This document shows, piece by piece, positions 35,592 through 40,710 of a DNA stretch of 64,000 nucleotides; the stretch's first letter is position 1, and the number at the start of each line of letters is the position of its first letter. A program made the translations under genes and the position numbers. The notes below the pieces were generated by a model. The model made no database searches, had not been told where the DNA came from, and was given only the letters and a program-made list of their open reading frames with translations. The stretch spans positions 1 to 64,000 of the forward strand of contig JANWYJ010000025.1 of assembly GCA_025055115.1 (NCBI GenBank), given 5' to 3'. This stretch comes from Gemmata sp. GTDB taxonomy: Bacteria > Planctomycetota > Planctomycetia > Gemmatales > Gemmataceae.

Positions 35592-36741
35592 AGGGGCGGC
35601 TACGTGTGGCGAAGGCCGCTTCGTCCGCGTCCCAGGCGGCGGCGATGGTGCGCCAGGGTGTACCAGCTTCGAGGGCGCGGCGTTCCCGATCGCTGCCGAA
35701 AAGTAGGTCGATGGCGAGGCGATCGGTCACGAATTCGTACTCTTCCGTTCGCCAAGCAAAGCGGGAACCACACAGTTCTCGCAAATGCGCAAGCACCGCC
35801 AGACCGGTCCGTACTGGGAGAAAGGCCCGGCGATCGGTGATATGCAACTGCACGCCGCCGCAATCCAGCCCGGCGAATTTATGGAAGGTGGGGCGGAACC
35901 ATGCGGCCCGAAAGCGCACGCCCGGCAGTTGTTCCGCTTCCAGGCGCTGCGCCAACTGCCGCGGTTCGATCCCTGGGGCACCACACAGTTCAAAGGGCCG
36001 TGTCGTGCCGCGACCTTCGGAGAGGTTCGTTCCTTCTAACAAACACATCCCCGGGTAGACCAACGCGGTGTCGAGTGTTGGCATATTGGGTGAAGGTAGT
36101 ACCCACGGCAATCCGGTTTCGTCGAAGTACCAGTCGCGTCGCCAGCCGTCGCAGGGGATGATTTCCAACGCCACTGTCGGTACACATTCGGCCTGATAGA
36201 GGCGGGCCAGTTCGCCGATAGTCAAGCCGTGCCGGGTGGTTAGCGGATGCGGACCGACGAAGCTTGTGAAAGCTGGCTGCAACAGGGGGCCTTCGATGGT
36301 CGTGCCGCCCAGGGGGTTGGGCCGATCGAGGACCACGACCCGCACGTCATTGTCAGCGCACGCTTGCAAGCAATACAGCAACGTGGCGTGGAAGGTGTAG
36401 TAGCGGCTGCCGATGTCTTGCAGATCGACGACAAGCGTATCGAGGCCGTGGAGTTGTGCGGCGGTGGGGCGCAGCGATGCCACCGACGCACCATAGAGGC
36501 TGTGAATCCGCACCGTGCCGCGGTGAGCATCGCCCACGGGGATGAGGTCTTGGGCGGTTCCTGCGAAGCCGTGTTCGGGTCCAAAAAGAGCCGCGAGAGT
36601 GACACCCGGTGCCAGGGCCAACAAATCGGCCGCATGAACGAGGTGGGAATCGACCGACGCTGGATGACAAACCAAGCCGATCCGCTGCCCACGGAGGGTC
36701 TGAAAGCCCGAATCGCGAAGAACATCAAGACCGCTGCGCAT
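35575..36741 (-). CDS. DUF1343 protein, NamZ/YbbC-like (GH171) exo-beta-N-acetylmuramidase
   Basis: A 388-aa DUF1343 protein. The family opening GQRIGLVCHPASVDSH and FGPEHGFAG are followed by VVDLQDIGSRYYTFHATLLY, VVVLDRPNPLGGTTIEGPLL, PSPNMPTLDTALVYPGMCLL and EGTNLSEGRGTTRPFEL. Bacillus NamZ/YbbC, of this family, releases MurNAc from non-reducing ends of glycan fragments (GH171). The only start, ATG 36739-36741, gives no signal peptide and a stop lies five codons upstream, so this copy is probably cytosolic. The substrate here is inferred from the family and the murQ neighbour. Confidence 0.88.
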   Translation of the reverse strand: MRSGLDVLRDSGFQTLRGQRIGLVCHPASVDSHLVHAADLLALAPGVTLAALFGPEHGFAGTAQDLIPVGDAHRGTVRIHSLYGASVASLRPTAAQLHGLDTLVVDLQDIGSRYYTFHATLLYCLQACADNDVRVVVLDRPNPLGGTTIEGPLLQPAFTSFVGPHPLTTRHGLTIGELARLYQAECVPTVALEIIPCDGWRRDWYFDETGLPWVLPSPNMPTLDTALVYPGMCLLEGTNLSEGRGTTRPFELCGAPGIEPRQLAQRLEAEQLPGVRFRAAWFRPTFHKFAGLDCGGVQLHITDRRAFLPVRTGLAVLAHLRELCGSRFAWRTEEYEFVTDRLAIDLLFGSDRERRALEAGTPWRTIAAAWDADEAAFATRSRPYRLYS

Positions 36742-36813
36742 CAGGAGCCACCATCACGGACGAAGCCCGACAACCGGCAGGGTGGACTCACACCCCCGGT
36801 GAACGGGAATGTA

Positions 36814-37812
36814 TTAAAAGGGGATGGCATCGTCGCCGGGGGGTGATGGGTTGGCTGGGGAAGTCGGGGGAGGAGAGATCCCGCGTGCGTGGGGTGGCCG
36901 CGTCATCATCTTGGCATAGCCGGTGTAGCCGGCGAGGCGGTCGCGGTCGTGCGGATCGCGGCTGCGGGCGAGCTTACGCATGATGTCGCGCAGGCGGGCG
37001 GGCAAGCGCACGCCGCCGTGGCGGGTGAGAATCGCCCCGGTGATCTCAGGTTCTTCCTCGCGTGAGTAAACGCGCCAGCCTTTGTGCGGGTGAAGCGGGT
37101 AGCCGAATTCAGATAAGATCGCCCGCACGCGGACATCGAACCCTGCAGGCGGTGCCGCCCCCACCGACCACGAAAACGCCAGATCGTCGCAGTAGCGGCT
37201 GTAGCGCGCGCCGGCCAGCGCTGCGAGGTTGGCCAGCCGTGTGTCCAAGTCGCGATTGACGAGGTTGCTCAGCCCAGGGCTTGTGGGTGCCCCTTGTGGT
37301 AGGCCGTCGCGATCGGTGGTGAGAACGGTCAGCACCCGGGCGGTATCGTCATCGACACGCTGCCGCCACCATTGTTCCACACGGACGGCGTGTGTGTTGG
37401 GGAAGAAGTCTTGAATATCGGCCAAGATAATCACCGCGGCGCCAGCATGCCTCCAAACGTGATCGGCTGTCGAACGCCCCGCCTGATACGCGAGTGCCGC
37501 GGGGTGCGGTTGTTCTGTGGTCAAGTAGCGGCGAATGATCGCGTGTTGCAGTTTCTTGAGCTTGGCATCGGGTTCAGCGATTTCGCGCCAGCGGCCATCG
37601 CGTTTAGCCCGGTAGAACCGCCGGTAGTGGAAGTGCGGTTCCAAACTTCCGGTCGTGAGGATGTCGCGAAAAACTTGCGGTGGCAGTGCGAGTGTGGCCG
37701 ACTCTTCGTTCGTGAACACTTCGAATGAAGGGATTGCCTCGCCAGAAAGTGGCTCTTCCGCCTGCTGGCGGCGGAGCGTTTGCGCTAGCAGCTCGAAAAG
37801 CGGCCATGCCAT
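36814..37812 (-). CDS. Retron-like reverse transcriptase
   Basis: A 332-aa RNA-directed DNA polymerase, the size of a retron RT with no maturase or endonuclease domain. Palm motifs: AYQAGRSTADHVWRH (residues 108-122), ADIQDFFPN with the first catalytic Asp at 132, GLPQGAPTSPGLSN (170-183), the YCDD box (207-210, against the usual YADD) and KGWRVYSREEEPEITGAIL, whose ITG (257-259) matches the retron VTG motif. The N-terminal 60 residues and a Pro-rich tail are unassigned. The ATG overlaps the SPFH stop (TGATG), so the two genes are translationally coupled. Group II intron and DGR features are absent. Confidence 0.9.
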   Translation of the reverse strand: MAWPLFELLAQTLRRQQAEEPLSGEAIPSFEVFTNEESATLALPPQVFRDILTTGSLEPHFHYRRFYRAKRDGRWREIAEPDAKLKKLQHAIIRRYLTTEQPHPAALAYQAGRSTADHVWRHAGAAVIILADIQDFFPNTHAVRVEQWWRQRVDDDTARVLTVLTTDRDGLPQGAPTSPGLSNLVNRDLDTRLANLAALAGARYSRYCDDLAFSWSVGAAPPAGFDVRVRAILSEFGYPLHPHKGWRVYSREEEPEITGAILTRHGGVRLPARLRDIMRKLARSRDPHDRDRLAGYTGYAKMMTRPPHARGISPPPTSPANPSPPGDDAIPF

Positions 37813-38546
37813 CAGACACTCCCGTTTTTGCGTGGCGTTAACAGATCAGCAAGGTTCGGCAGCAGCACCACGTTGCCGCCTTTGCCGGCCAGAGCCAGAA
37901 GTGCATCGAGTTGCTGAAGACGAACCACTTCCGGCGATTCTGCAAGGATTTTCGCCGTATTCGCCCGCGCCCGGGCGGCGGCGACTTCATGCCGCGCTTT
38001 CACCAACTCGGCCCGGCCGGTGCGGTCGGCTTCGACCTCCAACATCAACACCCGCTGGACTTCCCGCGGCAGAATCACATCGCGCAGGCCCACGCGCGTC
38101 AGCTCAACACCGTACCGCCGTGCCGGTTCCACCGCCAGCTGCAACAGTTCGTTACCTAATTCCGCGCGGCTTTCGAGCAATTGGTCCATCGTTTTGGCCG
38201 ATACGACATCCCGCAACGCCAGTTGCAGCTCTTGGTGAAGCTGCTCAACATAGTTTTCCACGGCCTGGAAGGCGAGTGTCGGATCGGTGACGCGGTATTG
38301 TGCTACCAGTGTGATGCGAACTTCGATCTTGTCGGCGGTCAACAGTCCTTGGCCGGCCACGATGTGGCTCATCTCGCGCAAGGAAATCTTCGCCACTTCG
38401 ACCGGTGCCCAGCGGCCAAAGCGGTACCGACCCGGTTCCAAAACCCGCTCCAGCCGTCCTGCGCGGTATAGCAGCCCCCGCTCGTACTGCAAGATGGTGA
38501 TTTCCTTACGGAAACCCAACCAAATTCGCTTCATCGGTGTCATCAT
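37812..38546 (-). CDS. SPFH/band-7 (stomatin/slipin-like) protein
   Basis: A 244-aa SPFH protein: YERGLLYRAGRLERVLEPGR, DKIEVRITLVAQYRVTDPTL, LQLALRDVVSAKTMDQLLES and the C-terminal helix LKARHEVAAARARANTAKIL-like run ending in PNLADLL. The family forms membrane-associated oligomeric rings. Unlike stomatins it has no long N-terminal membrane hairpin, only FRKEITILQYERGLLYRAG, so it may be soluble or peripheral. ATGs at 38546, 38543 and 38534 are all possible. It is the first gene of the RT operon, with its stop overlapping the RT start. Confidence 0.85.
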   Translation of the reverse strand: MMTPMKRIWLGFRKEITILQYERGLLYRAGRLERVLEPGRYRFGRWAPVEVAKISLREMSHIVAGQGLLTADKIEVRITLVAQYRVTDPTLAFQAVENYVEQLHQELQLALRDVVSAKTMDQLLESRAELGNELLQLAVEPARRYGVELTRVGLRDVILPREVQRVLMLEVEADRTGRAELVKARHEVAAARARANTAKILAESPEVVRLQQLDALLALAGKGGNVVLLPNLADLLTPRKNGSV

Positions 38547-39399
38547 GGTGCAGTCTCTGGGTCAGTTCGAGGGCCGCTCAACCCGGTGGGGATAGCGCGG
38601 GAAACCAGGGGACGCCAGTTGACGCGCTCGTTGTTCGAACCGCGCATGCCGTCCGAACGTCGAACGCGGGTATCCCTAGCGTCGCAAGCCAGTATCCGGC
38701 GTCGGTCTGGGCAAACCGAACACCGCCGGGTCGAGCAGCTCTGACACGTTCTCATTGCGCAGCGCGCAATGAGAACTCACTGACATCCCACATGCGGAAC
38801 ACCCACCCGCACCCGGGCAGCGCCGCTGTCAGCGTTTCCTAGTCTAAAAGAGCCAGAACAACGGCACAATGTTCGTTGTGAAGCGACGATTTTCCCGAAC
38901 TCTCTCAGATTTTGGGGTAACGGAATAATCGCCCCTCTTGAAAGACCGTTCCCAGGCTCAGAGTCATTCCCCAGCCGCGCCTAGTGATCGGAGAACGCCC
39001 GGGAGGCAATATCCATCGGTGCCGAGTGCCGATCCAGTGGATGAGACACACCTTGCGCCAGGAAACTTTGGCTCTTGGCAATAGTTTTTGGCATCTGTCA
39101 AGCACAGAGTGGCTCGTTTATCACCGCGTGACGAGCAATCGTTGGGCCGTCATCACCTTCTTTCTGCTTGCGGCGATACTCAACGATACTCAACTTCTGC
39201 TTGCGGCGATATTCAACGAGCGATCGTGCCGCGGCGAACACCCACGGGCTTTCCGGATCGCGGGCGGCCCAAGGGGTCGGGGGTAACAGGGCCGAAGCCA
39301 TTTTCGGCGGGTTATCCCATCTTCTCCCCTGTGCGCACCTTCGTACACTGATGGGCGAAGGAATCGCCCTCCAACCCTCGCGGAGCGGGTTTGCCCGCC
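38547..39399. other. Long divergent region upstream of the SPFH-RT operon
   Basis: About 850 bases without a supportable gene, between the SPFH start (minus) and the orphan protein at 39400 (plus). It holds a perfect 13-bp hairpin (38748-38776) and a near-tandem 25-bp repeat with 33-bp period (39162-39186 and 39195-39219, TTCTGCTTGCGGCGATA). This is the place to seek a retron-type noncoding RNA. No promoter box could be called. Confidence 0.7.
38748..38776 (-). other. Perfect 13-bp hairpin in the SPFH-RT leader
   Basis: GTTCTCATTGCGC (38748-38760) and GCGCAATGAGAAC (38764-38776) are exact inverted repeats with a 3-base loop, about 200 bases upstream of the SPFH start. No T-run follows on either strand, so it is not a standard terminator. 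It is a candidate part of a structured RNA (msr/msd-like) or a protein-binding site. Confidence 0.85.
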
Positions 39400-40710
39400 A
39401 TGTCGATTGTGCTGTCTGTCGCCGGTCAACTGACGGTCGCGGAAAAGCTGTCGCGGATCGCCGCCCGCGATTGGCTAGCGCGTGCGGCGGTGTGGTTCGA
39501 GAGCATCGGCGATGTGGTCCTCGAGGCTCGCGTGGGTCGCGATGCCGACGAGAAACCGGTGTTGCAAGTGGTTCTTCATCCGGCCGTGCCGCCGGTTGAA
39601 ATCCGCTTGGGCGGCAGCGGCAAGCTCCGCGTCTGGGCCATCACCTGCCCGGCTGGTCCGGGTTATCACATGTACCTGTGCGATTTGTTGCGCCAGATGG
39701 CCGAAGATTTCGTCTTCACATGGATGGACGATGATTGTTTCGACCCGACGGGTTACTTCCACACACGGCAGCGGCTCGTGTGTGAACAGCGTTTTCTCGA
39801 CTGTCTGCGCGAACTGTGCGCGACAGCTCCGGCGACGTTGGGGCTGCCGCGGGATCACGGCTTCACTTACCCGGCGGAAGTGCTGACGCCTGTTGGCCCG
39901 CGAACGCGGGCGTGGTGTGCCGAGGTCGCGGCTGATCCGCTCCAAGGTCGCGATTTCTTCCCGTGGTGGAACCCACAACTCGACGCGGCGTTTTATCGCG
40001 GTCGGGCCTTGGTGCGGTTGTGGTGTGATTTCTTCTGGCGGCCGCCGTTGACTGAAGACGAAGGCGAACTGGCCGATCAAATCGCCAACGATCTGGCCAG
40101 CGCTTTCAAGCTCGATCCGGGCATTGAACTGCCGTGGGTGGAGTGGTTGGAATTGTTAGCTGCCATTGAGAACGACGCTGGTTTTTGCGTCACCCCCAAG
40201 GATCAGGTCTTAAGCATCGAGTTGTGGAAGCGTGCCGGACCGCCGCCGCCGGAGCCGGGCCGCTGCCGGATCGGTTATCGGCGCTGGCCGGTGCGGGTAG
40301 CGCTCGAAGGCGGTTGGCAGATCGAAGTTCCCGGCGAGCTGGCTCGGGAATGGAATCGGGAGGAACAAACCTGGACTGCTTGGGACCAGACGCGCACGGT
40401 ATGGTTCCAAGTGTTGCGTTTCACCAAACGGGATGGTGAACCCCCTACGGCGGAGGAAGCTGCTGACGTTGGGCGTCGGAGTTTACCCGACGGCGAGCAG
40501 CTACCACCGGTGGTTCGTGCCGGCTTGCGCGGCGAAGCTGTCTTCGGTGTGGTGGAGGAGGATGGTCGGAAGTTGTGGCGGCTCAGTAGTGTGACCGGTG
40601 TGCGTGGGCAGCTGGCGGTCTGCAACGTCTACAGTGAAAAAGAAAGCGATCGCGATTGGGCCATCCGCACCTGGCATTCGCTGCAGCACAACCCGTCGCG
40701 CGATCTGTGA
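39400..40710 (+). CDS. Hypothetical protein (orphan, 436 aa)
   Basis: I do not recognise a family. The frame starts SIVLSVAGQLTVAEKLSRIA and is rich in Trp, Cys and acidic residues (FVFTWMDDDCFDPTGYFHTR, LVRLWCDFFWRPPLTEDEGE, PWVEWLELLAAIEND). There is no signal peptide or membrane helix. The late part (WQIEVPGELAREWNREEQTW) looks like a beta domain. The codon use matches coding neighbours and the frame is closed, so it is likely real. The start is ATG 39400; a TTG at 39391 is possible. It is divergent from the SPFH-RT operon across the long leader, so a link is possible but unproven. Confidence 0.72.
   Translation: MSIVLSVAGQLTVAEKLSRIAARDWLARAAVWFESIGDVVLEARVGRDADEKPVLQVVLHPAVPPVEIRLGGSGKLRVWAITCPAGPGYHMYLCDLLRQMAEDFVFTWMDDDCFDPTGYFHTRQRLVCEQRFLDCLRELCATAPATLGLPRDHGFTYPAEVLTPVGPRTRAWCAEVAADPLQGRDFFPWWNPQLDAAFYRGRALVRLWCDFFWRPPLTEDEGELADQIANDLASAFKLDPGIELPWVEWLELLAAIENDAGFCVTPKDQVLSIELWKRAGPPPPEPGRCRIGYRRWPVRVALEGGWQIEVPGELAREWNREEQTWTAWDQTRTVWFQVLRFTKRDGEPPTAEEAADVGRRSLPDGEQLPPVVRAGLRGEAVFGVVEEDGRKLWRLSSVTGVRGQLAVCNVYSEKESDRDWAIRTWHSLQHNPSRDL

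Follow-up and report, generated by a model that had tools for sequence, protein, structure and literature searches.

A retron-like reverse transcriptase gene linked to an SPFH protein gene and a conserved structured RNA in Planctomycetota and Chloroflexota

Among described systems, the retrons Ec86, Ec78, Ec67 and Ec83 are close to the locus reported here, which lies in a stretch of 64,000 nucleotides (nt) from Gemmata sp. (assembly GCA_025055115.1, contig JANWYJ010000025.1, positions 1 to 64,000; this whole stretch is called the window below) and comprises a structured RNA, a gene for an SPFH/band-7 protein and a gene for a retron-like reverse transcriptase (RT). The likeness concerns the profile, sequence and fold of the RT, the compact cassette, the structured RNA and the partner gene beside the RT. 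In the accessible portion of PMC13405049, sixteen retron subtypes are described with effectors ranging from ATPases to transmembrane proteins, and SPFH proteins are not among the effectors named there. The locus further differs from these retrons in that its SPFH protein matches no model in PADLOC-DB, the NAxxH motif of the RT is degenerate in most members, and the RNA, with two hairpins 5' of its closing stem, is without an Rfam match (window positions 36000-40000 and seven loci, E up to 5; only matches below the gathering scores). DRT2 and DRT9, two defence-associated reverse transcriptases (DRT), also combine an RT with a structured RNA according to the titles of their structure entries, but the window RT scores far below the Drt2 cut-off (39.6 versus 390 bits) and both rank lower in a fold comparison. 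Stomatin, HflK-HflC and QmcA share the Band_7 domain and fold of the SPFH protein, which differs from them in lacking an N-terminal hydrophobic segment and in its link with an RT and a structured RNA.

The three components lie on the minus strand in the order RNA, SPFH, RT and together span about 2 kb:

36814..37812, minus strand: retron-like RT, 332 amino acids (aa), with YCDD, LPQGAPTSP and ITG motifs and DHVWRH at the NAxxH position
37812..38546, minus strand: SPFH/band-7 (stomatin-like) protein, 244 aa, Band_7 domain, without N-terminal membrane anchor
38567..38826, minus strand: structured RNA element, 260 nt, the third component, with 20 nt between its 3' end and the SPFH start codon

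We read this locus, with moderate confidence, as a three-part retron-like cassette. Four features were observed: the order of the parts, their linkage, conservation of the RNA structure, and an RT of retron type whose catalytic motif is intact. The stop codon TGA of the SPFH gene and the ATG of the RT gene overlap by one base (TGATG), and the proteins match RVT_1 (E=1.9e-12) and Band_7 (E=2.3e-27) in Pfam. The first-pass annotation had reported an RT with YCDD, LPQG and ITG motifs joined to an SPFH gene by this overlap, and the pair was confirmed and recurs at 28 distinct loci. The coordinates given there, 36814-38546, were right for both genes and left out the structured RNA at 38567-38826. 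It had also known of no retron or DRT with an SPFH partner. No description of such an RT turned up in the literature searched, including the accessible parts of PMC7159879, PMC8934634, PMC12548924, PMC13405049 and PMC4936722, and novelty is claimed no further than that. The co-mention of retrons and SPFH in the part of PMC7159879 available is only a citation, and PMC4936722, likewise available in part, concerns a satellite-prophage SPFH protein with retronphage merely as an example; both are unrelated to the RT-SPFH pair.

Linkage was determined by running RT and SPFH profiles over 164 loci, which were obtained from a scan of genome contigs (13 loci) and then from family, phylum, order and class samples. 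Loci from the genome searches carry about 1.5 kb of flank, so that absence of SPFH means absence nearby. At all 43 loci with an RT family-profile score of at least 289 bits, SPFH lies upstream on the same strand, and it was found in the flank (mostly about 1.5 kb) of none of the other 121 RT loci, the best RT score of which is 258 bits. After removal of same-place copies by coordinates, the 43 loci reduce to 28 distinct ones, 17 from Planctomycetota and 11 from Chloroflexota, the latter being three named Anaerolineae records and eight genomes of the same order. Conservation of SPFH beside the RT in planctomycetes, proposed as a check in the first-pass annotation, is thus borne out and extends to Chloroflexota. 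Pair and RNA are carried by 10 of the 95 genomes in the family sample. The Chloroflexota order contains 11 genomes (of 154) matching the RT at E <= 1e-70, all 11 with SPFH, and one planctomycete class has an RT match in 15 of 247 genomes, 12 of them with SPFH. Among 392 sampled planctomycete genomes, 43 matched the RT at E <= 1e-50; 30 loci were fetched, and SPFH was present at two, the window and L045. Sampling of 400 Chloroflexota genomes gave two RT matches at E <= 1e-70, one with SPFH. On viral contigs, no SPFH was found in the flanks of 64 RT loci, and every match in the phage and plasmid searches (32 and 94 records) had less than 60% identity. The source genome (4.93 Mb, 98% complete) contains one match only to the window RT. 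RNA, SPFH and RT are linked in every clade member examined and are held together across the two phyla. Among the loci compared, only L002, the closest relative of the window, has genes beyond SPFH and RT in the order seen in the window. In the deepest member (L181:1435-3045, minus strand), the SPFH gene adjoins the RT and encodes a protein of 536 aa in which the SPFH domain is repeated, apparently to a total of three.

The RNA was discovered through alignment of the regions upstream of SPFH. In the window, it consists of the following parts, from 5' to 3':

38794..38826, minus strand: P1 hairpin (GCGG...CCGC), on the 5' side; over 27 loci, 99.2% of its cells are paired and 4 of its 9 pairs show two-sided changes
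38748..38776, minus strand: P2 hairpin, uninterrupted stem of 13 bp and loop of 3; sequence varies between loci
38723..38744, minus strand: P3, 5' strand of a long-range stem closing the 3' domain in predicted folds (candidate a1)
38601..38697, minus strand: conserved core hairpin with the GGGATACC motif; covariance model R1, which was built from sequences that include the window locus, matches it with 70.2 bits (E=4.6e-14 in a search over 73 sources)
38567..38590, minus strand: P3, 3' strand of the long-range stem in predicted folds (candidate a2)

Across 27 loci, the RNA is 249-303 nt long and its 3' end lies 16-198 nt before the SPFH start (median 57, at most 101 nt in 25 of the 27). The domain enclosed by P3 contains the core hairpin with its GGGATACC motif. 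Structure was evaluated on an alignment of these loci, A3, which was not fitted to any structure. The 32 pairs found by RNAalifold lie in P1 and the core, and 24 show two-sided changes. Paired cells amounted to 95.4% (69.8% after shuffling), two-sided cells to 214 (65 after shuffling) and covariation to 0.718 (0.223 after shuffling). Sliding the partners gave covariation values of 0.078-0.141, a comparison in which the structure is favoured, since it was predicted from A3 itself. The weakest measure is the number of pairs with two-sided changes, 24 compared to a shuffled mean of 20.8, with 3 of 500 shuffles as high. Compensatory changes over the 27 aligned loci back the RNA structure.

The P3 stem appears in the predicted folds of 26 of the 27 loci. 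It is supported by a test in which its strands were swapped between loci: own pairs reached -30.4 kcal/mol and cross-locus pairs -17.5 kcal/mol (none of 5000 permutations as low), with the strand ends chosen from the folds. P2 was rejected as a perfect hairpin everywhere: an uninterrupted stem of at least 8 bp is found in 18 of the 27 loci, and the fold of the other nine has an interrupted hairpin. A further stem, P0, pairing the leader with the stretch after P1, was weak and was not retained (-8.1 kcal/mol for own pairs versus -6.0 kcal/mol; in 7 of 27 rows the own pair ranks in the top three; none of 5000 permutations as low).

R1 recovers the 27 loci from which it was built. It was also run on the window, on L045 and on 71 RT loci drawn from the 121 that fall outside the clade. 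The window alone was matched; the L045 stretch scanned ends short of the RNA. The 95 family genomes were scanned with strict filters and 44 candidates scored per genome, and R1 matched exactly the 10 bearing the SPFH-RT pair, with one RNA copy each. At L181, a 28th locus held out from the model, R1 gives a weak match (17 bits, E=0.0055) immediately upstream of SPFH and on the expected strand. The structured RNA therefore stands beside the pair at 27 aligned loci, with a weak held-out match at the 28th. These positions bear on a reading in which RT and SPFH are adjacent by chance and the conserved RNA is a 5' untranslated region regulating SPFH. The distance of 16-198 nt (median 57) between RNA and SPFH start is indeed leader-like, but the RNA core was not found without the RT in the 95 genomes and all three parts stay together over two phyla, so that we regard mere coincidence as very improbable.

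By profile and by predicted fold, the RT is retron-like. The window RT scores 158.7 bits with the NCBIfam St85 RT profile versus 35.3 bits with the group II/maturase profile TIGR04416, for which the cut-off is 300 bits; the best score in the genome search was 33.8 bits, none exceeding the cut-off. Scores with the DRT profiles were 39.6 bits for Drt2 and 20.8 bits for Drt3a (cut-off 200 bits). In the PDB, phmmer returned the Ec86 RT as best match (6.3e-19). An AlphaFold2 model (mean predicted local distance difference test, pLDDT, 86.4; predicted template modelling score, pTM, 0.78) was submitted to a fold ranking (VIA), in which ranks 1-14 are all retron chains with Z of 20.0-23.9; RTs of diversity-generating retroelements and group II introns reach Z of at most 18.9, DRT2 17.2 and DRT9 16.9, and one retron chain is found lower, at rank 27 with Z of 16.2. 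The first-pass annotation had called the RT retron-like, which holds, and had named a place inside group II introns or diversity-generating retroelements as a refutation. By profile the RT is not of group II, and RTs of diversity-generating retroelements rank below most retron chains by fold.

YxDD is intact in all 28 clade RTs, and LPQG is kept in relatives as well. Two further motifs were scored, NAxxH of region X and VTG of region Y. Other than the exact NAxxH forms, the rows that could be read mostly have H followed by A, V or I and retain the final H; L083 gave no reading there. The form [VI][TV]G occurs in 24 of the 28, LTG in L005 and L009, and neither was found in the stretch searched of L082 and L083. 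PADLOC retron RT models, applied without cut-offs, match the window RT with E down to 1.6e-46, the best being RT_XIII with 157.3 bits. The full-length match L037 scores 537.2 bits with this model, XIII-like rows are separate in the RT tree (support 88), and of three members scanned L023 and L006 prefer RT_III-A (193.9 and 189.1 bits). On these scores the window RT appears to fit no PADLOC retron type well.

The same data speak to a DRT-like system, in which the RNA would serve as template or scaffold in a different mode of DNA synthesis, e.g. protein-primed, with no branched product and SPFH as effector. The length of the RNA (249-303 nt), its several domains, the lack of a clear a1/a2 and a helical stretch ahead of the RT domain would suit such a system. 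We nevertheless consider it improbable, as St85 lies far above Drt2 and retron chains top the fold ranking, with DRT2 and DRT9 lower.

An RT tree of 95 rows was calculated by a quick method with midpoint root; it contains no group II rows and has several long branches elsewhere. The 28 SPFH-linked RTs form one side of a branch with a Shimodaira-Hasegawa-like approximate likelihood ratio (SH-aLRT) support of 99. Placement in a tree, suggested in the first-pass annotation together with group II RTs, thus yields one clade, in a tree that is itself without group II rows; an outgroup of that kind was sought by an NCBIfam scan of 10 RTs, none of which was over the cut-off. Next to this clade in the tree stand RTs that have no SPFH neighbour and come mostly from planctomycetes. 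These sister RTs (L046-L073, L024-L027) are retron-like, lie among ordinary genes and are without the RNA core, and no common partner was seen at 14 loci, judged from the first residues of the neighbours without domain searches. Within the SPFH-RT clade, the label planctomycete or Chloroflexota needs at least three changes, so that the cassette probably crossed between phyla. Pairwise distances of the components are correlated (RT-SPFH 0.892, RT-RNA 0.827, SPFH-RNA 0.775; none reached in 5000 permutations). The ratio of non-synonymous to synonymous substitution rates (dN/dS) was determined for two species pairs by the Nei-Gojobori method, synonymous changes being near saturation in the first, and was 0.124 and 0.209 for the RT and 0.033 and 0.052 for SPFH. 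Both genes are under purifying selection in these pairs.

The SPFH protein is stomatin-like by sequence and modelled fold. Band_7 was found in all 15 clade SPFH proteins scanned. Foldseek gave human stomatin as best match (E=4.1e-18), then HflK/C, prohibitin, erlin and QmcA, and also flotillin and the major vault protein (E=4.3e-8); with a pLDDT of 75.9 and a pTM of 0.55 for the model, the orientation of the domains is unsure. All 27 SPFH proteins examined lack an N-terminal hydrophobic segment (no 19-residue stretch within the first 60 residues exceeds a hydropathy of 0.59), and the protein is therefore probably soluble or merely peripheral to membranes. L081 SPFH has one inner stretch with a hydropathy of 1.73. 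No PADLOC-DB model matched the SPFH protein. By analogy with the HflK/C, prohibitin, flotillin and vault assemblies matched, it may form rings. The vault particle is a protein cage that contains an RNA. Vaults are not known to contain an RT, only the SPFH-like part was matched, and the comparison is drawn as an analogy and not as a claim of kinship. We tentatively propose a retron class in which RNA, RT and a soluble SPFH ring or cage form one particle. A shell like that of vaults or HflKC, in place of a nuclease, NADase or membrane-spanning effector, would then sense or enclose the complex that bears the complementary DNA (cDNA).

For the three-part cassette, the following course may be imagined. 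The RT would bind the upstream RNA and reverse transcribe a portion of it, perhaps within the P3-closed domain, to give a stable RNA-DNA-protein complex, which the soluble SPFH protein would hold as a ring or cage. A trigger such as phage infection might alter the cDNA or the RT, whereupon the SPFH assembly would change state and cause growth stop or cell damage. Like other SPFH proteins, it might act by attaching to the membrane or to a protease, for example FtsH. The cassette is possibly a stress or anti-phage device. The anti-phage role is the least certain step; it is favoured by the kinship with retrons, the patchy presence and the transfer between phyla.

Several points weigh against the cassette as outlined. 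Two hairpins lie 5' of P3, and neither a1/a2, for which P3 is a candidate, nor a branch G was identified. Exact NAxxH occurs in only 7 of the 28 clade RTs, and no retron profile exceeds its curated cut-off (St85, 158.7 versus 235 bits). SPFH evolves very slowly, a pace more in keeping with a structural or housekeeping protein than with a rapidly changing toxin. The tree is without a group II outgroup, linkage covered mostly flanks of 1.5 kb, and the neighbourhoods examined resemble ordinary loci. Slow SPFH evolution and ordinary neighbours favour a housekeeping role, and we give some weight to a domesticated, non-defensive device with a housekeeping or stress function (membrane or protein quality control), whose cDNA would be regulatory or structural. 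The very strong purifying selection on SPFH, the occurrence of the RNA as one copy per genome in the 10 genomes having it, the ordinary neighbours and the sister RTs in the same phyla without evident common partner agree with it. We consider it rather unlikely, since presence in 10 of 95 family genomes, at least three phylum changes inside the clade and a gene order beyond SPFH and RT common only to the window and L002 suit a transferable cassette better.

A three-part cassette of this kind would extend the range of partners of retron-type RTs to SPFH proteins. It would also bring in a structured RNA family that covaries strongly and is conserved across two phyla. Bacterial SPFH proteins, the roles of which are poorly understood, gain a defined RNA-protein context. 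The small cassette of about 2 kb is directly testable for cDNA, complex formation and phage protection.

In the first-pass annotation, the retron-like RT and its SPFH partner were recognised correctly; the upstream RNA was missed, the proposed membrane action is weakened by the lack of an N-terminal hydrophobic segment in all 27 proteins, together with the "membrane ring" as such, and a location in defence islands, raised there as a check, was not seen in the few neighbours covered. When 10 neighbours from six loci were scanned with PADLOC-DB, two matched, both to generic families (a kinase-like protein at L004 and a DEAD-box-like helicase protein at L006).

The distance from the SPFH stop to the nearest possible RT start varies: the genes overlap at 12 of 27 loci, are 0-20 nt apart at 11 and further apart at four; at L006, L023 and L078 the gap is 107-155 nt. 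No promoter was found in a scan of window positions 36600-39400 (shuffled mean 0.4), and four terminator-like sites in the same region did not stand out (3.1 after shuffling). By eye only, -10-like boxes were seen ahead of P1 in several loci. Upstream of the cassette, at window positions 39165-39225, there are short direct repeats with a unit near CTGCTTGCGGCGATA (by eye). An open frame of 439 aa adjoins the cassette (39391-40710, plus strand); it has no Pfam or PADLOC match, and no counterpart was found among the neighbours of seven other loci compared. Ser/Thr kinase-like proteins are encoded within a few kb at L181:3566-6174, L004:10304-11947 and L009:143-3286 (all plus strand), called by eye, by the PADLOC match and by similarity to the L004 protein, respectively. 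Ser/Thr kinases are common in planctomycetes, and their position near the cassette may therefore be due to chance.
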